In this document: positions 17,187 to 61,869 of the stretch, one piece after another | Numbering within the stretch: the first letter of the stretch is position 1 | Layout: the number at the start of each line of letters is the position of its first letter | Assembly: GCF_000420065.1 (NCBI RefSeq) | Contig: NZ_ATUF01000005.1 | Location: forward strand, 1 to 64,000 | Reading direction: 5' to 3' | Origin: Varibaculum cambriense DSM 15806 | GTDB lineage: Bacteria; Actinomycetota; Actinomycetes; Actinomycetales; Actinomycetaceae | DNA: 64,000 bases | The notes under the pieces: generated by a model | The model's database searches: none | The model's input: only the letters and a program-made list of their open reading frames with translations | What the model was told of the DNA's origin: nothing | Position numbers and translations under genes: made by a program

Positions 17187-17259
17187 GGGGCTATAGCGCA
17201 GTTGGTAGCGCGCTTCCATGGCATGGAAGAGGTCGCGGGTTCGATTCCCGCTAGCTCCA
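17187..17259 (+). tRNA. tRNA-Ala (GGC)
   Basis: 73-nt cloverleaf with anticodon GGC between CTTCC and GGAAG. Acceptor GGGGCTA pairs with TAGCTCC (one G-T). CCA is not encoded, unlike the tRNA-His above. It is the last recognisable housekeeping gene before the prophage. Confidence 0.96.
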
Positions 17260-17284
17260 CTACGAGCACACTGAATTGATACAA

Positions 17285-18154: not shown

Positions 18155-19720
18155 TCAGTATTGCAATGGTAATTTCGTACCGTCGGCAAAGATTACGCTC
18201 GCCTCGCCTGATGGTGTGATCTGGATGCGTTGGCAAAGAGCATGCAGGGTTGCTCGGTCAAAGTCGTGGCTGAGGGTGGCGTTTTGGATGGTTTTCTTAA
18301 ACCTAGTGAGTTTGGCTTTGATGCCTGCGCGGCGCTCAATCTCCGCCGTGGTTGCCTGATATGCAGCAATAGCTTCACGTTGGCGGGTTTTGAGCTGGGT
18401 GAAGCGCTCTTGGTAGTCGTCTTGGTTTTGGGAGTGATGAGCGTTGTGGGTTATGGCTTGGTTAATGAGTTTGGTGGTTACCTCGATTTCACTTGCTTGC
18501 TGTAAGGCTTGTTCTTCCAAATCGGTGGTGTCTGATGTGGTGGTAATTAGGTAGTCCCAGTCGATGAGCTGCTGGCTTTTGATGAGCTGGGCGAGCGCTG
18601 TTTGGAAGATTGTTTGCAGTTGACTATCGCGTAGTACGGGCATTTTCTTTGGGTGAGGAACTGTGAATTTCTGGTTGCATTGCCAGATGATAGCCCGGTA
18701 TTTATCAGTGGAGTGCCAGGTTTTGCTGCCGTAGGCTGAGCCGCAGTGGGTACAGTAGACCATACTGGTGAAGGCTCTTTCGCGCCGGCCTTGGTTCGTG
18801 TTTTTTGCTAGCTCGTAGCGCACGAGTTCCCAGGTTTCAGGGGCGATGATGGCTGGATGAGAGCCGGTCACGTAATATTGTGGGACTTCGCCTTCATTGG
18901 CTTTGCGTTGCTTGGTGAGGAAATCTACGGTGAAACGCTTTTGCAAGAGTGCGTCGCCTTTGTATTTCTCGTTGGTGAGGATGGAGTGGATGGTGGTGTG
19001 GCTCCATTTGTGTTTACGCCGAGGGGTCAGTATTCCGTCAGCGTCTAGTGAGGCTGCGATCTGTGGAATGCTCATGCCTTCGAGGTATTGGCGGTAGATC
19101 CGGCGCACGATTTCGGCTTGCTCAGGATTGATGACAGGCTTGCCGTTCTCGCCGCGATCGTAGCCGAGAAAGTTACCGTAGGGCATATAAACTTTGCCGT
19201 CTTGGAAACGCTTCCTGTGACCCCAGGTGACGTTCTCGGAGATAGATCTGGATTCTTCCTGGGCAAGGCTCGACATGATGGTGATTAGCAGTTCACCTTT
19301 GGAGTCGAGGGTCCAGATATTTTCTTTCTCGAAAAACACCTCCACACCTTTATCCTTCAACTTCCTAACCGTTGTGAGGGAGTCGACGGTGTTGCGAGCA
19401 AACCGGGAGACGCTTTTGGTGACGATCAAGTCGATTCTTCCTGAGAGAGCGTCAGCTATCATGCGGTTGAATCCCTCCCGGTGTTTCGTGGAAGTGCCAG
19501 AGATTCCTTCATCAGTGTAAATAGCAACGTATTGCCAGCCGTCGTGGTTTTTGATGTAGTGCTTGTAATAATCCACCTGTGCCTCATACGAGTTCGCCTG
19601 GTCAGTATCGTCGGTGGAGACGCGAGCATAGCCAGCAACGCGGCGTAGCTGCTGGCCACTAATCGTGGTTGTAGTGGAGTGTAAGGGTTTGGTGGAAGGG
19701 ATAGTGGTAATCCGTGGCAT
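18155..19720 (-). CDS. Large serine recombinase (tandem copy 2)
   Basis: 521 residues. The resolvase catalytic domain has the nucleophile Ser35 in GYARVSTDD, followed by DEGISGTS, LIVTKSVSRFARN and the E-helix. Then come a Recombinase domain (about residues 185-290), a zinc ribbon (CTHCGSAYGSKTW...WQCN) and a coiled-coil C-terminal region (about 400-490), the layout of phage large serine integrases. Its ATG overlaps the stop of the upstream recombinase gene. The pair probably cooperates in integration and excision. Confidence 0.95.
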   Translation of the reverse strand: MPRITTIPSTKPLHSTTTTISGQQLRRVAGYARVSTDDTDQANSYEAQVDYYKHYIKNHDGWQYVAIYTDEGISGTSTKHREGFNRMIADALSGRIDLIVTKSVSRFARNTVDSLTTVRKLKDKGVEVFFEKENIWTLDSKGELLITIMSSLAQEESRSISENVTWGHRKRFQDGKVYMPYGNFLGYDRGENGKPVINPEQAEIVRRIYRQYLEGMSIPQIAASLDADGILTPRRKHKWSHTTIHSILTNEKYKGDALLQKRFTVDFLTKQRKANEGEVPQYYVTGSHPAIIAPETWELVRYELAKNTNQGRRERAFTSMVYCTHCGSAYGSKTWHSTDKYRAIIWQCNQKFTVPHPKKMPVLRDSQLQTIFQTALAQLIKSQQLIDWDYLITTTSDTTDLEEQALQQASEIEVTTKLINQAITHNAHHSQNQDDYQERFTQLKTRQREAIAAYQATTAEIERRAGIKAKLTRFKKTIQNATLSHDFDRATLHALCQRIQITPSGEASVIFADGTKLPLQY

Positions 19721-20970
19721 CAGGCAGTTACCTCCTCACCGGTGCGGCAGTTAATCATGGTGGTGTTCCCACTGCTGAGGTGGATTGTCAGGAGCCAGTT
19801 CGGGCTGGCCTTAATCCGTTCGATTCGATCAACCACCTGCTGGTCGTCCCAAGCATGAAGCCCAAGCAGGCGTTTGATGATGGTGTGCAGGTTTTCTTCT
19901 CGTAGTTGATGAGCATGACAGGGGTTGCCCTTGCCTTTCGTGGCGGTTTCGCACCACCAGTATTTATAAGTCGAGTGTGCCAAGCGGCGGGTACGCCGAT
20001 GATAGTTCCTGCCACAGATAGTGCAGGTGATGCGGTGTGTAAGAGCGCTACTGCCACCGGTTGGGGTCAAGCCGCGTCCGCCCGTGGCACGCCGCCTGGC
20101 TAGCTCTGCTTGAACGGCGTCAAAAACGCTACGCTCGATAATCGGCGGGTGGGAGTCTTCCACAATATATTTATCCAGCTCGCCACGATTCAGAGTTGGT
20201 GTGTTATCTCCGGCGTGAGCACTGAAGTACTGTTGCAAGATTGCGGTACCGATATAGGTGGGGTTCTCCAGCCAATCGCGGGTCACCGAGGCACTGAACT
20301 TGCCGCCACCACGTGAACGCAAACCCTCTTGGTTCATTTGTTTGCAGGTTTTCTCCGGGCTGATACCTTCAAGAAACTCAGCAAACACACGCCGCACAAT
20401 CACGGCTTCTTCTTCAATAATGTCGAGCTGGCCGTGGTGGTAGAGGTATCCGTAGGGGTGGCGCGAATGCAACAGACCATCCTTGTACTTTTTACGGATG
20501 CCCCACTTCGCATTAGCCGAGATAGATTCGGATTCAGCTTGCGCGAACGAGGCTAGTAAAGTGAGAAGGACTTCGCCCTCAGCGTTAGCGGTGTCGATGT
20601 TTTCACGTTCAAAACGCACTGAAACTCCAGCGGCTTTCAACGCTCGCACAGTGCTTAGTAGGTCGACGGTGTTACGAGCGAACCGCGAGATGGATTTGGT
20701 GAGAATAATGTCGATACTCCCTGCGAGTGCTTGCTCGATCATCTGGTTGAACTCGCCGCGCCCCGTGGTAGATGTACCTGTCGTTGCGTAGTCGCTGTAG
20801 ACCCCGGCGTATTCCCAGCCCGGGGTGTTCGTGATGAGCTTGTTGTAGTAGGAGACCTGGGCAGAGAACGAGTGAGTGAGGCGCTCGGATTCGCGTGAGA
20901 CCCGTACATATGCCGCCACCCGCGTGAGCCGTAGTTGGGTGGGTTTGGGTGGTAGTTTGCAGATCTCCAT
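19720..20970 (-). CDS. Large serine recombinase (tandem copy 1)
   Basis: 416 residues. Catalytic Ser25 in AYVRVSRES, then DYATTGTSTTGR, IILTKSISRFARNTVDLL, Recombinase domain and zinc ribbon (CTICGRNYHRRT...WCE). It lacks the long coiled coil of its partner and ends soon after the zinc ribbon, so the two proteins are not interchangeable. First of the pair in transcription order, 30 bases after the small helper gene. Confidence 0.95.
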   Translation of the reverse strand: MEICKLPPKPTQLRLTRVAAYVRVSRESERLTHSFSAQVSYYNKLITNTPGWEYAGVYSDYATTGTSTTGRGEFNQMIEQALAGSIDIILTKSISRFARNTVDLLSTVRALKAAGVSVRFERENIDTANAEGEVLLTLLASFAQAESESISANAKWGIRKKYKDGLLHSRHPYGYLYHHGQLDIIEEEAVIVRRVFAEFLEGISPEKTCKQMNQEGLRSRGGGKFSASVTRDWLENPTYIGTAILQQYFSAHAGDNTPTLNRGELDKYIVEDSHPPIIERSVFDAVQAELARRRATGGRGLTPTGGSSALTHRITCTICGRNYHRRTRRLAHSTYKYWWCETATKGKGNPCHAHQLREENLHTIIKRLLGLHAWDDQQVVDRIERIKASPNWLLTIHLSSGNTTMINCRTGEEVTA

Positions 20971-40177: not shown

Positions 40178-40471
40178 CTAGGCTTCGGGCAGATTAGCTA
40201 ACGCCCAGGCGATCGCATGTCCGGCGTCAGCGAAAAGGTGGTCTGACTTCGCGATGAGTTCGAGTTCGCATTCTCCGCGGCTCCTCGAGTTAGGCCCGAA
40301 CCCGCTGACGGGTTCTTCCATCAACCGGTAGATTTGGGCGTTATTGCCAAATCCTTCAGTCTTGGTCCAGGTAGCAAAACTTGCTAGCGTGTAGTTCCCG
40401 TAGGCAAGAACCGTCCCGTAGGAATCAACGCGCATCTGGAGGGTTTCGCTGGTGACCTTTGTGCTGTTCAT
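40178..40471 (-). CDS. Small phage protein, repeated-promoter cassette 1
   Basis: 97 residues: MNSTKVTSETLQMRVDSYGT and SFATWTKTEGFGNNAQIYRLMEE visible. No family recognised. Preceded by the repeated leader R1 (40486-40558), so it probably has its own promoter. It resembles the many unknown small accessory proteins beside phage terminases. Confidence 0.6.
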   Translation of the reverse strand: MNSTKVTSETLQMRVDSYGTVLAYGNYTLASFATWTKTEGFGNNAQIYRLMEEPVSGFGPNSRSRGECELELIAKSDHLFADAGHAIAWALANLPEA

Positions 40472-40485
40472 GGCTGGTGCCTTTC

Positions 40486-40558
40486 TGTTGTGTACCGTTT
40501 CGGTATGTATATACAGCCATAGACCCGCCTATTTATCCAGTCATTTTCCGCCTATTTT
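40486..40558 (-). repeat. Repeated promoter/leader R1
   Basis: About 73 bases nearly identical to R2 (41001-41075) and partly to R3. The centre is the perfect inverted repeat TACCG-TTT-CGGTA (40493-40505) next to TATGTATATACAGCCATAG. The 3' flank TTTATCCAGTCATTTT is shared. It lies directly upstream of the gene at 40178-40471. Confidence 0.75.
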
Positions 40559-40568
40559 CAAGAAAACT

Positions 40569-40586
40569 TAGAGATGTACATCTCTA
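40569..40586. promoter_or_regulatory. 18-bp perfect palindrome
   Basis: TAGAGATGTACATCTCTA is fully self-complementary. It lies between repeat R1 and the terminator of the next cassette, upstream of the R1 promoter on the minus strand. A half-like copy (TTTACATCTCTTGG) occurs at 41091-41104. A dimeric repressor site is the simplest reading. Confidence 0.5.
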
Positions 40587-40612
40587 GGTCATAACGCTTC
40601 ACGATAAAGGAA

Positions 40613-40649: not shown

Positions 40650-40985
40650 TTAACGGGTCAGGTGGTAGTTGACAACGTTTCCTGGTGTAGCATGTTCAAG
40701 TTCACGCACCATCGCTGCTGCCCGCCCGTATCCCTCGGTGACTTGTTCGATGTTGTCTAGGTTCAACGCTCCGTAGGCGGTGGTTTGCACCCGCCATTGA
40801 TCGGTTTCAAAGTCTCGGTCAAGCTCCGGGGTGTAGGGGAACAGCGGGGAAGGAACAATAGAAATCGCGACCCGGCCAGGTTCAATCTCAATGCTGGTGA
40901 TGGTGTATCCCAACCGGTTAGCACGTCCGATAAGGCGTTCGGTGTTTTCTTCCTCGACGCTGCATTCAGCTTCTTTGGTGTTCAT
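40650..40985 (-). CDS. Small phage protein, repeated-promoter cassette 2
   Basis: 111 residues, acidic N-terminus (MNTKEAECSVEEENTERLIG) and VAISIVPSPLFPYTPELDRDFETD. No family recognised. RBS AAGGAAAC. It has its own repeated leader (R2) and its own terminator, so it is an independent unit. Confidence 0.6.
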   Translation of the reverse strand: MNTKEAECSVEEENTERLIGRANRLGYTITSIEIEPGRVAISIVPSPLFPYTPELDRDFETDQWRVQTTAYGALNLDNIEQVTEGYGRAAAMVRELEHATPGNVVNYHLTR

Positions 40986-41000
40986 GGCTGTTTCCTTATG

Positions 41001-41075
41001 TGTTGTGTACCGTTTCGGTATGTATATACAGCCATAGACTTCGCTACTTATCCAGTCATTTTGCCGCCTATTTTG
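41001..41075 (-). repeat. Repeated promoter/leader R2
   Basis: Second copy of R1, with the same perfect inverted repeat TACCG-TTT-CGGTA (41008-41020), TATGTATATACAGCCATAGAC and TTATCCAGTCATTTT blocks. Differences are confined to spacer positions. Upstream of the gene at 40650-40985. Confidence 0.75.
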
Positions 41076-41091
41076 CCTAATAAATAGTGGT

Positions 41092-41544
41092 TTACATCTC
41101 TTGGTTAGTGTTTATTAGTGGCGGGGTTTTCCACGCAGAATCACCGCTTAATGGTGCAAGTAAGATCTTGCGTACTTCCTTATGTTCTTTACCAGAAAGT
41201 CCGATGCGGTAAAGCAGGGAGCGCAGTTCATACTTCTCATTCACCACCTTGTCACTCGCGGCGCGGTGGGTGGTGAGCCCGATGCGTTTCGCATATGCGA
41301 CCATTTTGCTTAGGAACTCGGTGTATGCCGTGATCTTCTCGAACTCTGGCAGCTCATCCCACCAAGGAAAACTCAGCCCCTCGCTACTGGTGGTGATGTC
41401 GAGATGGCTCGCGCCGAGCGCTTTAGCGATCAAGTCTTTCTTGGCAGCGATAAGTTCATGCAGCCTTGCCAGCTCAGTCTCATCAAGCGTGGCGGGCAGG
41501 GTGACTAAGAGCCCGTAGTTTTCAGCCTTTTTGGTGTTCACCAT
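41092..41544 (-). CDS. Prophage 'virulence-related protein' family-like
   Basis: 150 residues. The C-terminal half (YELRSLLYRIGLSGKEHKEVRKILLAPLSGDSAWK) matches a pattern I recall in small proteins labelled virulence-related in Firmicutes prophages (FLLRLGFIGxEYKxxRKILLxxLxGNSAWK). The N-terminal half is helical with an FPWWDEL segment. The label is historical; no function is known. Overlaps the next gene by 7 bases. Confidence 0.6.
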   Translation of the reverse strand: MVNTKKAENYGLLVTLPATLDETELARLHELIAAKKDLIAKALGASHLDITTSSEGLSFPWWDELPEFEKITAYTEFLSKMVAYAKRIGLTTHRAASDKVVNEKYELRSLLYRIGLSGKEHKEVRKILLAPLSGDSAWKTPPLINTNQEM

Positions 41545-41753
41545 TGCTCATCCTCCTCACCATCAAATTCGATGCTTTGAACGTCCATCCATGTGCGGAT
41601 GAGGCGCAGGTAGTTGTCTGGAAAGTTGGAGACGATCATTTCTACGTGCTCGTAGCCGTGGTCTTTGGCCGCATTCCACACCGCACCAATATCGGTGAGG
41701 TCGACTCCGAGGTTTTCGATTTCTTCTAGATCGACATATAGCTGTCCCATCAT
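41538..41753 (-). CDS. Small acidic phage protein, repeated-promoter cassette 3
   Basis: 71 residues from ATG 41753 (RBS GAGAGGG), beginning MMGQLYVDLEEIENLGVDL and ending IEFDGEEDEQW; strongly acidic, a DNA-mimic-like composition but too short to judge. Preceded by R3. Forms a two-gene unit with 41092-41544. Function unknown. Confidence 0.6.
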   Translation of the reverse strand: MMGQLYVDLEEIENLGVDLTDIGAVWNAAKDHGYEHVEMIVSNFPDNYLRLIRTWMDVQSIEFDGEEDEQW

Positions 41754-41778
41754 CACCAAACCCTCTCTTTCTTGCTGG

Positions 41779-41840
41779 TTGTTTGGTCATGTACATACAG
41801 CCATAGGAGCGCGTACTTATCCAGTAATTTTTGCCTTAAA
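41779..41840 (-). repeat. Repeated promoter/leader R3 (diverged)
   Basis: Shares GTACATACAGCCATAG and TACTTATCCAGTAATTTT with R1 and R2, but the TACCG/CGGTA palindrome is degraded (GGTCATGTACAT). It lies between the small gene at 41538 and the 3' part of the cytosine methylase gene. Confidence 0.6.
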
Positions 41841-41841
41841 A

Positions 41842-42312
41842 TCAAGGAGTTTTAGTGCTCTCGGCGACTATCTGGGAAAGCACGAGTTTGGCGCACGGCA
41901 AAGCTATCCCGTTTCCCCACAGCTTGTAGAGTGCCCGGTCGGACGCTGGATTAGCCAGCCATTTGCGTACTTGGTTGCGGGTTTTAGGTTTTTTCAATCC
42001 TTGCACCTTGGCCCAGCTAGCCCAGACCTGCCACCAATAATCCAGCACGTCTTCGCTCGGGTTCTCGATGGCGAGTCCGTCTGTCCAAGTATCAGGGAAT
42101 CCTTGTAGGCGGGCGCATTCGGTGGGGGTTAAGCGTCTCACGCGGTATTTGGGCATGCCAGGGTCAGTGACCAGGGGCGGCTCAGTTGAGTCCGAAGCCA
42201 ACAGAGCGCCAGCAATATTGACGTTGCCTCGGCAGAAGAAGTCTGCCTTCGAGGCGCTCACAACGTCGGGTTCGACGATGGCGATGCCGCCTTGGTTGCA
42301 GGTCGGAGAAAC
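41842..42312 (-). pseudogene. C5 cytosine DNA methylase, C-terminal part (split by insertion)
   Basis: Carries methylase motifs IX and X: RRLTPTECARLQGFPDTW and LWGNGIALPCAK. The frame is open upstream of its first Met and reads VSPTCNQGGIAIVEPDVV from 42312. This is the piece expected after the 46586 end of the N-terminal fragment: joining the two gives LDTSG-VSPTCNQGG in frame. In the present arrangement it has no start signal of its own beyond internal Met codons. Confidence 0.88.
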
Positions 42313-43214
42313 ACCTGCTGTACGCGCGTTTTTGGCACAAGGTCCTCTACGACTTGGGATATGTGTCCAGTTCAGAGCCGTTCCATCGCCTGTTCAACCA
42401 GGGCATGATTGAGGCTTATGCCTACACGGATTCACGTGGGCAATACGTCCCGGCTGACGAGGTGGAGGGTAGCGAGGAGGACGGCTTTACCTGGCAGGGT
42501 CAGCCCGTCAACCGCGAGTTCGGCAAGATGGGCAAGTCGCTCAAGAACATTGTCACCCCTGATCAGATGTGCGCGGATTACGGCGCGGACACGTTCCGGG
42601 TTTACGAGATGTCGATGGGACCGCTGGATATGTCCCGTCCGTGGGACACGCGCGCGGTGGTCGGTTCCCAGCGTTTCCTGCAGCGACTGTGGCGCAATAT
42701 CGTCGATGAGAACACCGGCGCGCTCACCGTGACCGATGACGCCCCGGATTTGGCGACCGCAAAAGTGCTGGCTCGCACCATTCACGATGTCACCGTGGAG
42801 TACGACAATCTGCGCGTGAACACGGCTATCGCCAAGATGATTGTGCTGAATAATCACCTCACCGGGTTACCCCAGGTGCCACGTGAGGCCGCAGAAGCGT
42901 TGGTCGTGATGGTCGCCCCCATCGCTCCGCACATTGCGGAGGAACTGTGGGAACGTTTGGGTCACCAGGGCGGAATCGCCCGGGCCACGTTCCCGGTCGT
43001 GACCGATGAGTCGCTGTTGGCGGCTGAGGAGGTCACTTGCGTGGTGCAGGTGGCGGGCAAGGTGCGCGCGAAAGTGTCGGTGGACCCCGAGATTTCCGAG
43101 GCGGATTTGCAGGCGAAGGTCCTGGCGGAACCGGCGGTGGTGAAGTTGCTGGACGGGCGGGAGCCGAAACGGATTATCGTGCGTGCTCCAAAGCTCGTAT
43201 CCTTGGTTTTTTAG
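42313..43214 (+). pseudogene. leuS: Leucyl-tRNA synthetase, C-terminal third only
   Basis: Open from the left junction; the frame begins HLLYARFWHKVLYDLG, which is internal to LeuS. It includes the KMSKS-loop equivalent (GKMGKSLKN), the RVYEMSMGPLDMSRPWDT segment, the anticodon-binding domain and the C-terminal domain ending at TAG 43214. About 300 of the usual 900-950 residues remain, without Rossmann HIGH or most of the editing domain, so it cannot be active. Codon use is more GC-rich than neighbouring phage genes. Confidence 0.93.
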
Positions 43215-43275
43215 GATTTGTCAGTACAAAAAAATCGCTAAATTACGGGATTTTAACGGTTTCGGGCTTGCAAAC

Positions 43276-43295
43276 TTAGGTATGCCTAACTTAGG
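43276..43295. promoter_or_regulatory. DtxR/MntR/IdeR-type operator before metal importer
   Basis: TTAGGTATGCCTAA (43276-43289) overlaps CCTAACTTAGG (43285-43295): two interleaved TTAGG/CCTAA half-site pairs, as in metal-dependent DtxR-family boxes. It ends 8 bases before the GTG start and overlaps a likely -10 (TATACC). Binding there would shut off the importer when Mn or Fe is plentiful. Confidence 0.8.
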
Positions 43296-43303
43296 CTATA
43301 CCC

Positions 43304-44242
43304 GTGAAGAGATTTAAAAACAAGCAAATTAAAGGAACCTTGACCGTAGCCGCGCTTTTGTGCCTGGGAGCCTCTCTCAGCGGGTGCGGCGGGACCCCCA
43401 GCTCCAGCTCGGATTCAGCCGCACCAGGCAAACCCCTGGTCCTCACCACATTTACCGTGTTGCAGGACATGGCTCAAAACGTTGCCGGAGACCATCTGGA
43501 AGTCCGCTCTATCACCAAACCTGGGGCGGAAATCCACGATTACCAACCCACGCCCTCGGACTTGAAGTCGGCGCAGAAAGCGAAACTGATTTTAAATAAC
43601 GGGCTGGATTTGGAACGCTGGTTCACGAAGTTTACCGCCGATCTGGATGCCAAAAAGGTCAATGTTTCGCAGGGCGTAGAGCCCATTCCGATTACCGAAG
43701 GCGACTACAAGGGTAAGCCCAATCCGCACGCTTGGATGAGCCCGAAAAACGGCGCCCTCTACGTGAAGAATATGGCAAAAGCCTTCTGCGATTTAGATGC
43801 AAAGAACTGCTCCGAGTACCAGGAAAATGCCAAACAGTATGGTGCCAAGATTGAAAAAGTCGGCGAGGACATCACGTCCACGCTTTCTCAGCTCGACCCG
43901 TCACAACGTACTTTGGTCAGCTGTGAGGGAGCATTCTCGTATCTGACTCGCGACTATAACCTCAACGAGAAATTCTTGTGGGGCGTAAATGCCGAAGGAG
44001 CCCTCACTCCCTCTCGCGTAGCGGAAGTGGAAGACTACGTGAAGCAAAACCACGTTCCCGCAGTTTTCTGCGAGTCAACCGTGGGAGACAAAATGCGACC
44101 CGTTGTGGAAGCCACAGGTGCGAAATTCGGTGGGGAATTGTATGTTGATTCCTTGTCAGACTCAGATGGAGACGTTCCGACCTATCTGGATCTGTTGCGC
44201 TACGACGCAGATTTGATTACCCGAGGATTGACTCAGAAATGA
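43304..44242 (+). CDS. Metal ABC importer substrate-binding lipoprotein (Mn type)
   Basis: 312 residues. Signal peptide with lipobox LSGC (Cys28) for membrane anchoring. Cluster A-I (ZnuA/PsaA) fold with predicted ligands His in EIHDYQP, His in NPHAWMSP, Glu in SCEGAFSYL and Asp in LYVDSLSD. The His-His-Glu-Asp set is the Mn/Fe type (PsaA, SitA); zinc binders have a third His. GTG start without a recognisable SD, so the mRNA may be leaderless. Confidence 0.92.
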   Translation: MKRFKNKQIKGTLTVAALLCLGASLSGCGGTPSSSSDSAAPGKPLVLTTFTVLQDMAQNVAGDHLEVRSITKPGAEIHDYQPTPSDLKSAQKAKLILNNGLDLERWFTKFTADLDAKKVNVSQGVEPIPITEGDYKGKPNPHAWMSPKNGALYVKNMAKAFCDLDAKNCSEYQENAKQYGAKIEKVGEDITSTLSQLDPSQRTLVSCEGAFSYLTRDYNLNEKFLWGVNAEGALTPSRVAEVEDYVKQNHVPAVFCESTVGDKMRPVVEATGAKFGGELYVDSLSDSDGDVPTYLDLLRYDADLITRGLTQK

Positions 44243-45045
44243 GTGATGCTCTCGACAACCGCATAGAGCCAGGCGGGGCTGAAGCTGAGTCCAGCTCAAA
44301 TTTAGCCCCGCCTATATTAGAAGTCTCAGATTTGCATGTTCGTTACGGAGCTAATGTGGCACTGGAGGGTGCCAGTTTAACCGTGTCGCGCGGTCAAATT
44401 TGTGGTCTGGTAGGGATGAACGGTTCGGGAAAATCAACACTGTTCAAATCCATCACCAACAGCGTTTCGTATCAAAAGGGCAGTATTAAAGTTGCCGGAA
44501 TTGACGCGAACCAAGCCCGCAAACAGCGACTGATTGGTTATGTTGCGCAAAATGAGGAAATCGATTGGGACTTCCCGGTTAACGTAAACCAAGTCGTCAT
44601 GATGGGACGGTATGGATTTATGGGACCGACCCGTCGTCCCAAATCTGCAGACGTGGCAGCGGTGCAAGCCGCGTTAGAAATGGTGGAGTTGCAAGATTTG
44701 CAACAGCGCCAAATTGGGGCGTTGAGCGGCGGTCAAAAGAAAAGGGTGTTTATCGCCCGCGCGATTGCCCAAGGCGCGCCCCTCCTGCTCCTCGATGAAC
44801 CGTTTGCCGGAGTAGACAAATACTCCGAAACCAATATCGTCGATTTGCTGCGCAAAATCTCGGCAAAAGGCACCACGGTGGTGGTTTCAACCCACGATTT
44901 GGCTTCTTTGGAAAAGCTCTGCGATGAAGTGGTTTTGCTGTATCGTCGCGTAGTTTATCAAGGTGATCCCGCCGGCGCCTTAGACCCGCAAAACCTCGCG
45001 AAAGCGTTTGGATTAAATCCCGCCGCGTCAGGAGGTGGACAGTGA
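44239..45045 (+). CDS. Metal ABC importer ATP-binding protein
   Basis: 268 residues. Walker A GMNGSGKST, Q-loop YVAQNEEIDWDFPV (the IDWDFP segment is typical of Mn/Zn importers), signature LSGGQKKR, Walker B LLLLDEP and H-loop STHD. Overlaps the lipoprotein gene and the permease gene by 4 bases each, so the three are one translationally coupled operon. Confidence 0.94.
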   Translation: MSDALDNRIEPGGAEAESSSNLAPPILEVSDLHVRYGANVALEGASLTVSRGQICGLVGMNGSGKSTLFKSITNSVSYQKGSIKVAGIDANQARKQRLIGYVAQNEEIDWDFPVNVNQVVMMGRYGFMGPTRRPKSADVAAVQAALEMVELQDLQQRQIGALSGGQKKRVFIARAIAQGAPLLLLDEPFAGVDKYSETNIVDLLRKISAKGTTVVVSTHDLASLEKLCDEVVLLYRRVVYQGDPAGALDPQNLAKAFGLNPAASGGGQ

Positions 45046-45935
45046 ATTTTTATGAAGCTTTCATCGAAATGTGGACGCAGCAGTTTATGCTCCGGGGCAT
45101 CATCGTCACCGGAGTCGCGGCGGCGGTTTGTGCCGTGTTGTCCTGCTGGTTGGTCTTGATTGGCTGGTCACTGTTAGGTGACGCCCTGTCCCACGCAATT
45201 CTTCCCGGAATCGTCGTGTCCTACCTCTTGGGAACGCCCTTCGCAATAGGCGCCCTCGTGGCAGCTTTGCTGGTGGTGGGATTGATTGGCGCAGTGCGGG
45301 GGCGCGGACGGGTCAAAGAAGACACGGCTATTGGGGTGGTATTCACGACAATGTTTGCCTCCGGTCTGGTCTTAATCAGTCTGTTCCCCAGTCACATTGA
45401 TTTGCACCACATTTTGTTTGGCGACATGCTCGGCATTACCAGAGCCGATATGTGGCAGGTCTTGATATTGAGCCCACTCGCTCTGGTGCTGTTGTTATAC
45501 AAAAAACGGGATTTGGTGCTGTATGCCTTCGACAAGACTCACGCCCACGCTATCGGCATCTCTACAAGCTGGTTGGCGACTCTGTTGCTGGTAGCTCTGT
45601 CTTTGACAGTCGTGGTGGCGATGCAAGCAGTGGGCGCAATCCTCATCGTGGCACTGGTGATTACCCCTGGCGCAACCGCCCGGCTGCTCACAAACCGGTT
45701 CAACGCTATGCTATGGATAGCTCCCTTGCTTTCCGTATCCTGTGTCGTGCTGGGAGCCTATATTTCCTACTGGTTCGATACCGCGTCAGGAGCCACAGTC
45801 GTGCTGCTTGAAGGCGTATTGTTCCTGATTGTTTGGCTGGTGGATTTGCTTCGTCAACAGCGTCTGCAGCGCTATCATGGCGCGCAGTCTGCCGCCCCCG
45901 GCTCTGACCCGGAACCTCAACAGGTTGCTTCTTGA
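45042..45935 (+). CDS. Metal ABC importer permease
   Basis: 297 residues, ABC-3 permease family with about eight hydrophobic helices. Family landmarks: SLLGDALSHAILPGIVVSYLLG near residue 43-64, EDTAIGVVFTTMFASGLVLIS, and VGAILIVALVITPGATARLL. Completes the importer. The C-terminal tail is Ala/Pro-rich and cytoplasmic. Confidence 0.94.
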   Translation: MNFYEAFIEMWTQQFMLRGIIVTGVAAAVCAVLSCWLVLIGWSLLGDALSHAILPGIVVSYLLGTPFAIGALVAALLVVGLIGAVRGRGRVKEDTAIGVVFTTMFASGLVLISLFPSHIDLHHILFGDMLGITRADMWQVLILSPLALVLLLYKKRDLVLYAFDKTHAHAIGISTSWLATLLLVALSLTVVVAMQAVGAILIVALVITPGATARLLTNRFNAMLWIAPLLSVSCVVLGAYISYWFDTASGATVVLLEGVLFLIVWLVDLLRQQRLQRYHGAQSAAPGSDPEPQQVAS

Positions 45936-45944
45936 GGCAGCCCT

Positions 45945-46585
45945 CTAGGGTAGGCCGAGGTAGCGCAACACTGCCTTGGCACTGCCCTTGTTGAGGTCAC
46001 CCAGCTGCGCCAACTGACCCAACCCTGACCCCAGGACAAACGTATCCCCGGTGGTGGCAGCTCCTTTCAATGGCGGCGCGACGCCTTCCCAAAGGAATTT
46101 CCCGTCGACCACCCCGTAACTCAGCAGCCCCCCGTTGCCCTCCGTAAACACGGCTTTTGTCGCGTCGGAGGTCAACGGAGTCCCCGGAGCTTTCAGATTG
46201 AGGGTAACGCCGTCCCCGGTGGTCCAAGTTTTGGCAGCGCAGCCGGGCCAGGACGCACAGGTTTCCCCGCGGTCTGCCAAAAAATACGTCCGATTGGGCA
46301 TGAGGACAGGGATTTTCCCAGATTTTAGAGCTGCCATAGCGCTGTCAGTGTCCAGCCGAAGTCCGGCGCGCAGTTGAGTGTGCAAGGCTTGTACCGCCAG
46401 GGCGGGGCACTTGCCCTCCCCCACTATCGCACCGTCAGAACCATAGACCTGCCAATCAATCTGCCCGTCGCCCTGCGGATCTGCCGACGCGAAAAATCCG
46501 GCTTCCAGCATCGACATCTGCGCGGCAGGGCCAAGTTTAGAGGTGTCCAGGGAACCGATTTTCGTATTAATAATTTGAGAATAGC
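45945..46585 (-). pseudogene. Unknown protein lacking its N-terminus at the insertion edge
   Basis: Convergent with the importer operon. The frame is open from the right junction (ARYVWSYSQIINTKIG and onward) to TAG at 45945, over 200 residues. Contains LADRGETCASWPGCAAKTWTTGDG and FVLGSGLGQLAQLGDL; two Cys may form a disulphide, suggesting an exported domain. The first internal Met (46517) gives 190 residues. Family not recognised; the true start lies in the missing DNA. Confidence 0.7.
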
Positions 46586-47635
46586 TCCAGACGTATCGAG
46601 CGTCTTTGATACCTCGGTGGGATAACCGTACCTGCCTACTGCTGCGCCGCGTTCCTCATGCAACGCATTGAAACCGTAGGCGGTAGCGATGATGGGAGTA
46701 TTGCCTCCGTCAGTGCCGTAACGAGCGGTCACGGTTGGTGCTATCTGGCATGGTCCGCCCACCCTGGCATCATGAGGATGATGGTCAAACAGTAGCGGCT
46801 CAATAATACTCTGGTCGTTACTGCATCCGAGCGTGCCCGAAAGGTTTGTTTGCACGAGCGGGCCTTTACCGCCGCCTGGTTTACCTGCCCGCATCCGCAA
46901 GGCGAACACATCTAAAGATTTGCTTGCCTCGTGAGTGCCTGCTCGAGGATTGGTGGGAGGGTTTTGCCTTTCACTGCAGCCCGGCGCAAGATCCCGGAAC
47001 ACGCGTTGGGGCTCAAAGAGTATTTGTCCGGCACGCCCGCTTGCAAAATCGCAGATAAGGTAGATTCTTTTGCGTCGTTGGGGTACTCCGAAAAATTGCG
47101 CGTCCAATACTCGCCACGCAATACTCCATTGGTCTGCCACGATCGCTCCAGCTTTATGCCACTTTTGTACTCGAGGTAGGTCAGCCGCTGCCGTTTCGTC
47201 GACAACCGAGATGAGGTTTTGCAGGACGCTGTGGAAGTCTGCCCCTTTATTGCTTGAGAAGGCTCCGGGCACGTTTTCCCAAACAGCGAATCTTGGATAT
47301 AGACCATGACTTGCCTTTCTCATTTCTCTGATGACTCTGACGGCTTGGTGGAATAGACCCGAGCGTTCGCCAGCTAAACCTGCCCTTTTACCTGCTACCG
47401 ACAGGTCTTGGCAAGGAGAGCCAAACGTGACCACATCCACCGGCTCTAGCTGACTGCCGTCAATGTCGCAGATGTCGCCTAGGTGTTGCATTTGCGGAAG
47501 GCGCGTGGTGGTGACCAGGATCGGGAAGGGCTCAATCTCACTTGCCCACACAGGTTCGATACCAACCTTTGTTGCCGCTAGTGGGAAGCCACCTGAGCCA
47601 TCAAAAAGCGAGCCAAGCCTTAAAGTTTTTGTCAA
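46586..47635 (-). pseudogene. C5 cytosine DNA methylase, N-terminal part (split by insertion)
   Basis: 350 residues holding motif I (LGSLFDGSGGFPLAA), motif IV with catalytic Cys (GSPCQDLS), motif VI (WENVPG) and motif VIII (QRRKRIYLICDF). The target-recognition region follows. The phage frame ends at TLDTSG; beyond it translation runs 54 codons into the inserted block and stops at 46424. Motifs IX-X lie 4.27 kb away at 41842-42312. Without them the enzyme should be inactive. Four bases after the ParB-methylase gene. Confidence 0.92.
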
Positions 47636-47638
47636 GGG

Positions 47639-48895
47639 TTAGCCTTTCTGCTTGGGGCGCTCGACTTCTTTGACCAAATCGAGGTAGGCGTATTCTTTGC
47701 CGCCACGGGTACAGGTGATCCCAGCTGCGTCTCCGGTTGCTTCGGCATAGCGGCGCACAATCACGGAAGCGTATTTCTCATCCAGCTCCATGCAATAGCA
47801 AGTGCGGTCTGTGGCTTCTGCAGCCATGAGTGTGGAACCAGACCCAGCAAAGGTATCGAGGATGATTGCGTTGGTTTGGGTGGAGTTACGAATCGGATAA
47901 GCCAACAGGTCTAGTGGCTTGGAAGTGGGGTGATCGGAATTCTTCCTCGGCTTGGCGAAATTCCACACCGTGGTTTGTTTGCGATTCGCATACCAAGCGT
48001 GAGAGCCGTCTTTCTTCCACCCATACAGCACTGGTTCGTGCTGCCACTGGTATGGGGAACGGCCAAGTACGAGGGAGTCTTTGACCCAAATACAACAGCC
48101 CGACAGGTAGAAGCCAGCGTCTTGAAAAGCGCGACGGAAGTTCAATCCTTCGGTGTCGGCGTGGAAGACATAGGCTGACCCTCCCTTATCTAGGGATGCC
48201 GCCATGTTGGTGAATGCAGCTAGTAGGAACTGGTAGAAGGTGTCTGTGTCTTGTTTGTCGCCTGCGATTTTCAGGCCGCTGTTCGATTTGAAGTCCACGT
48301 TGTAAGGCGGGTCTGTGACCACCAGATTAGCCTGTTTGCCATCCATCAAGGTTTCGACATCGGCCGGGTTCGTGGCGTCCGCGCACATCAGGCGATGCCT
48401 ACCAATCCTCCAGATATCGCCTTTTTCGACGAAAGCTGCTGCTTCAAGGGCGGCGTTCAGGTCGAAGTTATCGTCTTCGATACTGTCGCTATCAAGAGAA
48501 CCTATTAACTGTTGTATTTCGGATTCGTCGAAACCGGTGAGTTCAACGTCGAAATCGGAAGCATCCAGGTCGGCTATGAGTAGGGCGAGTTTGGAATTAT
48601 CCCAATCGCCACTGATCTTGTTTAGAGCAACGTTGAGCGCTTTTTCGCGGGTTTCGTCGAGTTCGACGACCACGCAGTCCACGGTTTTATAGCCCAGATC
48701 AGCCAGTACTTTCAGGCGCTGATGCCCACCTACAATATTTCCGGTGGTTTTGTTCCAGATGACTGGCTCCACATATCCAAACTCACTTAGCGAGCGTTTG
48801 AGTTTGTCGTAGTCCGCGTCCCCGGGTTGTAGGTCTTTGCGGGGGTTGTAGTCAGCTGGGGTGAGATCACTTATGGCTATTTGCTTGATGCGCAT
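47639..48895 (-). CDS. ParB-nuclease/DNA adenine-or-cytosine methylase fusion
   Basis: 418 residues. N-terminal ParB/sulfiredoxin-like domain (about 1-110; NPRKDLQ, GNIVGGHQRLKVL). The C-terminal amino-methylase has TDPPYNVDF (motif IV, about residue 199) before FAGSGSTLMAAE (motif I, about residue 346), the beta-class order. Such fusions are common in Gram-positive prophages. Modifies phage DNA, probably against host restriction. Overlaps the SAM synthetase gene by 29 bases. Confidence 0.93.
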   Translation of the reverse strand: MRIKQIAISDLTPADYNPRKDLQPGDADYDKLKRSLSEFGYVEPVIWNKTTGNIVGGHQRLKVLADLGYKTVDCVVVELDETREKALNVALNKISGDWDNSKLALLIADLDASDFDVELTGFDESEIQQLIGSLDSDSIEDDNFDLNAALEAAAFVEKGDIWRIGRHRLMCADATNPADVETLMDGKQANLVVTDPPYNVDFKSNSGLKIAGDKQDTDTFYQFLLAAFTNMAASLDKGGSAYVFHADTEGLNFRRAFQDAGFYLSGCCIWVKDSLVLGRSPYQWQHEPVLYGWKKDGSHAWYANRKQTTVWNFAKPRKNSDHPTSKPLDLLAYPIRNSTQTNAIILDTFAGSGSTLMAAEATDRTCYCMELDEKYASVIVRRYAEATGDAAGITCTRGGKEYAYLDLVKEVERPKQKG

Positions 48896-50057
48896 GGTTT
48901 TTCACCGCCTTGACAAGCTCACGGCTAGTAGTCCAGGTGTCTTCCCACTTGCGTGTGTAATCCCCGAAATGCCCATACGTCGAATAGCGCACATAGCCGG
49001 GTGCTCGCAGCCCAAACTGGTCGATGATTGCTGCTGGCCGAAGATTGAACACATCTCGAGCCGCAGCCGTGAGAATCTGGTCGGTGTATTGGCCGGTGCC
49101 GAGCGTGTCCACACTGAAAGCAACCGGGTCGGCTTTGCCAATCGCGTAACTAATCGCCACCTGGCACTGGGATGCAAGATCCGCATCCACCACGGTTTTG
49201 GCGATCAGCCGCGCCATATAAGCACCCGACCGGTCAACCTTAGAAGCATCTTTACCACAGAAAGCTCCACCACCATGAGAAGCCAGCCCGCCATAGGTGT
49301 CAACCATCAACTTCCTACCGGTGAGTCCGGTGTCGGCTTTAGGGCCGCCTTCCACGAACCGCCCGGACGGGTTGATCAACACAAGCGTGTCCGGGCTTAC
49401 CGGTAGATATGGCTGACATGCTGGGCCAACAATCAGCGAAGTTATTTCACGGCGCAACACCTCGAAATCCTTGGATTTATCGTGCTGGACGGAAACCACC
49501 ACCGTCTCTACGGCTTGCGGTTTTCCTGCGTCGTTGTAGCGCACCGAAACTTGTGCTTTACCATCTGAGAAGATCCCTGTGATGGTTCCTTGCTTGCGCG
49601 CGTCATCTAGCCGCTTACAAATCTCGTGGGCTAAAACAAGAGGCAATGGTAAACGCTCAGGAGTATCAGTGCAGGCATAGCCGTAGACCGTGCCTTGATC
49701 ACCAGCACCCTGAAGACAATAAGCGGACTCATCGCCATGGCGAGCCTCTAAAGATGTGGTCACGCCGTCGTTAATATCGTTAGATTGACGCCTCACCCAT
49801 ACGTATACCAAAAATCTCCACGGCTTATAGCCAGCTGCAGTCAGGGCTGTGCGTACGCAATCACGCAAGTCCACACGAGCATTAGTGCTGATTTCACCAG
49901 TGACAATAATACGTCGCCCAGTAGCCATGACCTCTACCGCGACGCGGGCGTTGGGATCGGCGTAGAGAATTTCGTCGAGAATCTGATCAGCAATTAGATC
50001 GCACAGTTTATCGGGGTGACCGATACACACTGCTTCAGCGCTGCGAACCATAGTCAT
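48867..50057 (-). CDS. metK: S-adenosylmethionine synthetase (phage-encoded)
   Basis: 396 residues. Begins MTMVRSAEAVCIGHPDKLCDLIADQ. Signature hexapeptide GAGDQG and the glycine loop GGGAFCGKD (Cys in place of the usual Ser) are present, along with the metal/ATP-binding DPNARVAVE and NPSGRFVEGGP. Makes SAM from Met and ATP. Located directly upstream of two SAM-using methylases, so it likely boosts SAM for phage DNA modification. Confidence 0.95.
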   Translation of the reverse strand: MTMVRSAEAVCIGHPDKLCDLIADQILDEILYADPNARVAVEVMATGRRIIVTGEISTNARVDLRDCVRTALTAAGYKPWRFLVYVWVRRQSNDINDGVTTSLEARHGDESAYCLQGAGDQGTVYGYACTDTPERLPLPLVLAHEICKRLDDARKQGTITGIFSDGKAQVSVRYNDAGKPQAVETVVVSVQHDKSKDFEVLRREITSLIVGPACQPYLPVSPDTLVLINPSGRFVEGGPKADTGLTGRKLMVDTYGGLASHGGGAFCGKDASKVDRSGAYMARLIAKTVVDADLASQCQVAISYAIGKADPVAFSVDTLGTGQYTDQILTAAARDVFNLRPAAIIDQFGLRAPGYVRYSTYGHFGDYTRKWEDTWTTSRELVKAVKNHAHQANSHK

Positions 50058-61296: not shown

Positions 61297-61869
61297 TTAG
61301 GCGAGGAAGTCCTCGTCTGCATCCCAGGTATCGAACTCGGAGGATGCGCTCACATGCCCGCCGAGTGGCTCACCATCACGGGTCTTTTGAATATTGCCAA
61401 GACCGCAGGCCACGCCACGGTTCCCGTTGGTGTTGAAAGCGTAGAAATTGATGGAAACTCGCCCGTAGCAGCCAGAATAGACTTCGGAGCGGTCGAGGAT
61501 GGGGTTTACGTCTTGATCCACGATCTGCGGAGCATTAATACTGTTGGCATTCACGAAATAATGTCCGGCATAAGCGTCATCGTCACGCTCAGCATCTCCA
61601 TCACGTAGCGGCAGCTTCAGTGATGCGCGTGGCGGGATCTTCCCGCCGAACTTCCCAATACCCTCGGTGATTGCTGCCTCGATAGCAGCATTAATCGCAT
61701 CGATAGTAGCAGCATCATCTTTAGGGATAAGAAGCGATACTGAGAACTTTGGTTTGCCGCCGTTAATAGATTTTGCTTCCCACACGTTCGCGTAGCTCAA
61801 ACGTATTTCGCCGGTAATAACCTTGGTCGGATTATTCTTCTTATTCTTGGTGTTCACGCGGTTCGACAT
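61297..61869 (-). CDS. DUF2815 protein (probable ssDNA-binding protein)
   Basis: 190 residues. VITGEIRLSYANVWEAKSINGGKPKFSVSLLIPKDDAATI at the front and VYSGCYGRVSINFYAFNTNGNRGVACGLGNIQKTRDGEPLGG are the DUF2815 hallmarks. The family has an OB-like fold and is thought to be the phage single-strand binding protein. Acidic C-terminus (DTWDADEDFLA), as expected for SSB-like tails. Confidence 0.9.
   Translation of the reverse strand: MSNRVNTKNKKNNPTKVITGEIRLSYANVWEAKSINGGKPKFSVSLLIPKDDAATIDAINAAIEAAITEGIGKFGGKIPPRASLKLPLRDGDAERDDDAYAGHYFVNANSINAPQIVDQDVNPILDRSEVYSGCYGRVSINFYAFNTNGNRGVACGLGNIQKTRDGEPLGGHVSASSEFDTWDADEDFLA

Follow-up and report, generated by a model that had tools for sequence, protein, structure and literature searches.

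We analysed a 64,000-nucleotide stretch of DNA from Varibaculum cambriense DSM 15806 (contig NZ_ATUF01000005.1, positions 1 to 64,000; hereafter the window). It contains a prophage whose C5-cytosine methylase gene is interrupted by a block of chromosomal DNA with a manganese-type ATP-binding cassette (ABC) importer operon, mntABC (Table 1). Matches to the Pfam family DNA_methylase at 46586-47635 and 41842-42312 placed the two halves of the gene on either side of the block, as the initial annotation had proposed. The 5′ open reading frame (ORF) continues into the insert and stops at 46424, giving 403 amino acids (aa) in total, and the product without its C-terminal part is presumably dead. An intact 508-aa allele in a related locus (L124) naturally encodes TLDTSG-VSPTCNQGG, the joint that had been predicted from rejoining the halves. 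Alignment to this empty allele upheld the extent of the block given earlier (42313-46585) and shifted its position by one base; placements at 42315-46587 and 42316-46588 are equivalent to that in Table 1.

Table 1. Coordinates of the interrupted methylase gene, the captured block and the surrounding prophage in the window.
Feature	Position	Strand	Basis or remark
Captured chromosomal block	42314-46586		4273 bp net relative to the empty allele L124; homology to donor G135 spans 42312-46589 including microhomology
Methylase 5′ part, phage C5-cytosine type	46587-47635	-	Pfam and empty allele
Methylase 3′ part, same gene, cut off by the insert	41842-42313	-	Pfam and alignments
leuS 3′ third	42315-43214	+	Last 299 residues and stop of the 980-aa donor ORF; start lost; dead fragment
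Variable stretch, 82 bp	43254-43335	+	All five in-block changes of the four copies; alignment of copies
mntA leader	43268-43303	+	DtxR-like box 43276-43294; putative -35 TTGCAA (43268) and -10 TAGGCT (43292), our reading
mntA, manganese-type solute-binding lipoprotein	43304-44242	+	GTG start in the window, ATG in both donors
Importer ABC-transporter ATPase	44239-45045	+	Pfam, NCBIfam
Importer ABC-3 family permease	45042-45935	+	Pfam, NCBIfam
3′ part of 491-aa donor ORF	45945-46586	-	About the last 214 residues; start lost
Host prophage, about 46 kb	18155-64000	-	Reaches slightly outside the window (about 64413 in contig coordinates); ends approximate

We found that the site was empty in 19 of 22 aligned methylase loci and occupied in 3, the window not being counted. 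Of the 22 loci, 9 were drawn from the 30 listed for 213 genomes of the family and 13 from the 15 in viral contigs; those left out are mostly more distant. Because some loci with equal identities probably represent one genome present in two collections, the independent empty alleles are fewer than 19.

The block had been described as holding leuS without its 5′ part, a full importer and a gene without a start, and all three were seen by Pfam and by comparison with the donor. Pfam recognized the end of a tRNA synthetase, which was named leuS through the donor. The binding protein, ATPase and ABC-3 permease (PF01297, PF00005 and PF00950, all above cut-off) form one operon with the gene set of an Mn/Fe ABC importer of the MntABC/SitABC class. 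The piece of the 491-aa ORF had no family match in Pfam, PHROGs or NCBIfam, and Rfam gave no match within 41000-48000. A complete host leuS elsewhere, the possibility of which had been raised, was found as a separate 965-aa gene on contig C3 of the same genome (G000:C3:329296-332193); it is 67% identical to the captured fragment at the DNA level.

Among the matches listed from the 213 family genomes, the block occurred in one piece outside its carriers only in G135 (97% identical) and G136 (92%), collinear in both. The leuS-mntABC order that the initial annotation had suggested seeking in other genomes was thereby recovered. In these two donors a complete leuS (980 aa) is followed by mntABC and then by a complete convergent neighbour (491 aa), and the block starts inside the former and ends inside the latter. 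Two further genomes of the same genus gave matches to leuS and the importer in pieces (G137) or to leuS and part of mntA (G138), again among the matches listed. Flagellin was found in four of four genomes of the donor genus versus none of six of the window's genus. Because the donor genus has flagellin and Mobiluncus is described as the only motile genus of the family (PMC4177395), the donor is probably Mobiluncus, with an M. curtisii-like chromosome.

The whole block was present at about 100% over 4273/4273 bp in three of six Varibaculum genomes, namely that of the window (G000), G002 and G005, and a fourth copy was found in one IMG/VR record. G005 is taken to be Varibaculum vaginae, a contig of which encodes a permease identical to the captured one. 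All four records have the insert in the one methylase gene and at an identical base; G002, G005 and the IMG/VR record thus provide the related phages with the same insert in the same place that, according to the initial annotation, would prove it real. A near-identical phage core extends over about 36.0-48.6 kb among the window, G002 and G005, and over 42,299-48,631 (6333 bp) in all four records. Beyond it the carrier phages are 64-95% identical module by module, or do not align. The host flanks of the G000 and G002 prophages do not match each other, the G002 prophage lying near tRNA-Gly and tRNA-Pro genes.

Because separate assemblies share the joint yet differ in background, the insert is no assembly error, and the chimeric contig that had been offered as the alternative is excluded. 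More broadly, an assembly or culture chimera would mean that a Varibaculum prophage had been linked to foreign DNA in silico or through contamination, which would suit the ragged gene edges at both ends and the contamination estimate of 2.59% for G000. We regard it as extremely unlikely, since the joints coincide to the single base in all four records, the phages of which diverge by 5-36% elsewhere, the host flanks of G000 and G002 differ, and identity to the nearest donor is 97%, not 100%. In a scan of named genomes (best 80 of 549 loci), the donor block was listed in no genome besides V. vaginae, and the next permease was that of Mobiluncus porci (70%). In an annotated phage collection of 50,697 records, which may omit records close to the window, 28 had a match and none covered 80% of the interrupted methylase plus insert; the best matches were leuS-like or methylase-like pieces.

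To define how the block entered, we compared its ends with the donors and the empty allele. Phage and donor have TGG in common at joint one (CTGG with the second donor) and GGTG at joint two. When the donor locus was joined at random to a related phage, an overlap of 3 bp arose in 5.3% of trials and one of 4 bp in 1.7%; the frequency of at least 3 bp and at least 4 bp together was about 0.0009. No phage bases were lost at insertion relative to the empty allele. The lack of a target duplication noted earlier held in general, although not for GG, which is common to both joints. As first described, the block has no transposase (ORF list, Pfam) and no terminal repeats at its ends among those listed for 42250-46650 (best 20 of 29 direct families, 25 of 26 inverted pairs). 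A cargo borne by a transposon or insertion sequence (IS) was rejected on these two grounds.

The shared GG invited another explanation, namely site-specific recombination, in which a large serine recombinase of the phage, or an IS607-like serine transposase, would have cut a circle out of the donor and crossed it into the methylase at GG. The phage does have two serine recombinases, and GG occurs in both donor ends and in the phage site. Yet no more than 18-21 of 62 positions are identical between the donor ends and the phage site, GG alone being common to all three, and on this ground a serine-recombinase cassette was rejected. Furthermore, the block is without a recombinase gene, and the TGG and GGTG overlaps are longer than a 2-base core. 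Site-specific recombination is accordingly considered very unlikely.

These results support the illegitimate capture of another bacterium's DNA that had been proposed, with donor locus, empty site and a common joint all found. Taken as a whole, a single recent capture by microhomology joining, spread afterwards by phage recombination, is highly probable. A temperate phage of the Actinomycetaceae would have captured, once and recently, a slice running from the 3′ part of leuS through mntABC to the 3′ part of the convergent neighbour. The joining may have occurred by end-joining or template switch at 3-4 bp microhomologies inside the methylase gene, with the phage DNA kept. Homologous recombination between related phages would then have carried the insert and its flanks, the 6.3-kb common segment, onto different phage backgrounds, and in this way into at least three Varibaculum species.

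Related phage DNA, 69-79% identical and in pieces of more than 1 kb, was detected in three of four genomes of the donor genus and was absent from G136. Phages of this kind thus do enter donor-type cells, and the capture may have taken place in a donor cell. A separate observation concerns a related phage locus with an empty methylase site (L196, 6000-16208, IMG/VR record G215). It has an insertion of about 10 kb beside the endolysin gene that carries a TetM/W/O/S-type ribosomal protection gene (tetracycline resistance); a 3151-bp part of this insertion recurs at 99.97% identity in G135, in a stretch between phage-like matches.

We then considered what the captured operon could do. The DtxR-like box reported in front of the importer was recovered: TTAGGTATGCCTAACTTAG at 43276 agrees at 15 of 19 positions with a DtxR-type consensus, a score attained nowhere else in the window on either strand. 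A consensus sigma-70 promoter scan of the mntA leader found none and gives the putative -35 and -10 elements no support. The host encodes two DtxR-family proteins above cut-off and two more below. The best matches of MntA in the PDB were the manganese transporter chains 3ujp, 1xvl and 4irm (E values 7e-96 to 4e-95), and the alignment matched His, His, Glu and Asp positions, which we take to be the metal ligands. In NCBIfam, MntA had only sub-threshold matches, to zinc (AztC, top) and manganese models alike. Judged from sequence, manganese specificity is likely, and the importer may be expressed and import manganese. The block consists of non-phage genes in an otherwise complete temperate phage, with structural, lysis, integration and replication genes present, and is absent from 19 of the 22 loci, as expected of a moron or cargo. 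Having brought its own DtxR-like box, the operon could act as an autonomous moron. The metal-uptake cargo first proposed is plausible by gene content; a working benefit to the host fared less well, as one of the four mntA copies is frameshifted and three lack the ATG start.

When the four copies were aligned, all five changes within the block fell in 82 bp around the start of mntA. The changes at 43254 and 43335 are found in the window and G005, that at 43296 in G002, the ATG to GTG change at 43304 in the window, G005 and the IMG/VR record, and a two-base insertion at 43325 in the IMG/VR record. Both donors have the ancestral state at all five sites. The rest of the block showed no differences in 4196 bp among the four copies, and the only additional differences in the shared 6333-bp segment were three in its methylase part (46653, 47083 and 47421). 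In simulations, five sites fell within such a span in none of 2,000,000 random draws; the corresponding values for four and three events were 2.4e-5 and 1.1e-3, and 7e-6 was obtained for five out of eight events falling in one 82-bp stretch of the shared segment. The changed sites flank the DtxR-like box on both sides, the box itself being unaltered, and the last three fall in the first codons of mntA. The IMG/VR insertion frameshifts mntA and leaves an internal TTG as the only possible in-frame start.

The GTG start and the frameshift are easily read as lowering importer output. The G002 change brings a second half-site nearer to the operator (TTAGGTTA), and this site, which scores 11/19, offers a weak hint of altered control. 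The clustered changes may reflect selection that lowered or retuned a foreign importer in a new host, where misregulated metal import is the likely pressure. The three carrier lineages, namely the window with V. vaginae, then G002, and the IMG/VR record, each show a separate change at the mntA operator, start or signal peptide, and we tentatively consider immediate regulatory selection a reasonable, if less than even, possibility.

Several observations weigh against this reading. The frameshift rests on one assembled record. Single-nucleotide polymorphism (SNP) clusters brought by recombination also occur in the phage flanks, with 9 in G002 between 41.2 and 41.8 kb, and for this reason clustering alone is no proof of selection. 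The pattern TTAGGNNNNCCTAA was found at two places in the genome, the insert and C3:179281, versus six for a reversed control pattern; the second copy lies beside genes read as MarR-like and glmU-like. A host regulon built on exactly TTAGGNNNNCCTAA is thus not indicated, and the box is not repeated at host metal genes. The cargo would supplement uptake systems already present, since three further ZnuA-type binding proteins and an Nramp transporter are encoded by the host. Finally, 126 of 4278 positions separate the insert from G135, and at 57 positions all four copies differ from both donors. Of these 57 differences, 51 are synonymous, and the dead leuS piece accounts for 22 synonymous and no nonsynonymous ones. 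Since they are synonymous even in the dead piece, this divergence predates capture and arose in a working chromosome; it gives no sign of an operon maintained by selection in the phage. With nearly all divergence older than the capture, the ratio of nonsynonymous to synonymous substitution rates (dN/dS) is uninformative.

The block could instead be a passenger without a role under selection, and decay, or chance plus recombination, could lie behind the changes at the start of mntA. This explanation is compatible with the capture and competes only with the functional one. One frameshifted copy, three copies with GTG, the other such importers of the host and the lack of any constraint separable from the donor's would all fit it. 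However, neutral decay is expected block-wide, yet no change was found in the other 4196 bp of the four copies, and the insert lies within the core common to otherwise mosaic phages. We consider a passenger role possible but somewhat doubtful. Alternatively, retention may have served the phage, with selection for losing the C5 methylase and not for acquiring the importer, as the insert does truncate the methylase gene. A point mutation would suffice for this, however, the junction is uninterrupted at the site in 19 of 22 loci, and the later in-block changes sit in the mntA leader; selection for methylase loss is very unlikely.

The prophage genes include two large serine recombinases, endolysin, tail, tape measure, capsid, protease, portal and terminase large and small subunits, together with methylases, metK, HNH, helicases, antirepressor, DNA polymerase and exonuclease. 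Gene calls were made with PHROGs on 20 contig proteins, one of which, a captured gene fragment, had no match. The left end was set at the first recombinase ORF, 0.9 kb from a tRNA-Ala gene (17187-17260), and the right end where homology to a related phage record (IMG/VR) ceases. The two recombinase genes (18155-20970, minus strand) adjoin with a one-base overlap and both have phrog_95 as best PHROG. A phage-encoded S-adenosylmethionine (SAM) synthetase gene, metK (48867-50057, minus strand; TIGR01034 above cut-off), lies beside a ParB/DNA-methylase fusion and the broken C5 methylase, clustering the SAM supplier with its users. Downstream of the methylase, a pair of imperfect direct repeats (40462-40589 and 40976-41105; about 130 bp each, 83% identity) is present in the window, G002 and G005 prophages. 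Outside the window but on the same contig, G000:C5 74600-76802 and 90496-92678 hold two similar gene pairs, each a 353-aa membrane protein and a dehydrogenase-like protein (read from the first residues), in a seemingly duplicated segment.

As a rule, host-operon capture by temperate phages is deduced from events that are old and blurred, and morons are acquired by illegitimate recombination. The present case resembles the sitABCD operon of temperate lambdoid coliphages, a complete Fe/Mn ABC importer described as a temperate-phage moron (PMC6969025, PMC9928086). One survey reports sitABCD on 70% of lambda phages, with a Fur box in every case (PMC6969025), and transcription above background is reported for sitABCD of the Perceval prophage of E. 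coli LF82 (PMC9928086). A metal-regulator box thus precedes the importer in both, Fur in the coliphage sitABCD described and DtxR-like here. Unlike sitABCD, the operon studied here belongs to an actinobacterial phage and host, has three genes, occupies an intragenic site with truncated neighbour genes attached, and goes back to one recent capture with donor and empty site identified and clustered leader mutations.

Morons are described as autonomously expressed non-phage genes in prophages (PMC9928086). Like them, the block brought non-phage genes and their own control region into a phage genome with no phage sequence lost; unlike them, it lies inside the methylase rather than between genes, has dead ends of source genes attached, and its expression is putative. 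Phage mosaicism is attributed to Rad52-like relaxed recombination (De Paepe 2014, PMC3945230). Such recombination could explain the later spread of the insert and its flanks between diverged prophages; it is homology-driven, whereas the capture had only 3-4 bp of homology. No Rad52-like recombinase was identified in the phage, where a 190-aa ORF (61297-61869) had no NCBIfam match.

Phage-borne Fe/Mn importers are already known, and what is new here is the footprint, with donor, empty site and four daughters, together with the mutation cluster; we found no earlier account of this case in the open-access literature. With the donor locus, the empty target and four daughter copies in hand, the joint is resolved to the single base, and the fate of a foreign importer after landing can be followed. 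The data point to gene flow between Varibaculum and what is probably Mobiluncus through related phages. If the regulatory reading is true, phages would seed foreign transport operons that are then silenced or retuned by their hosts.

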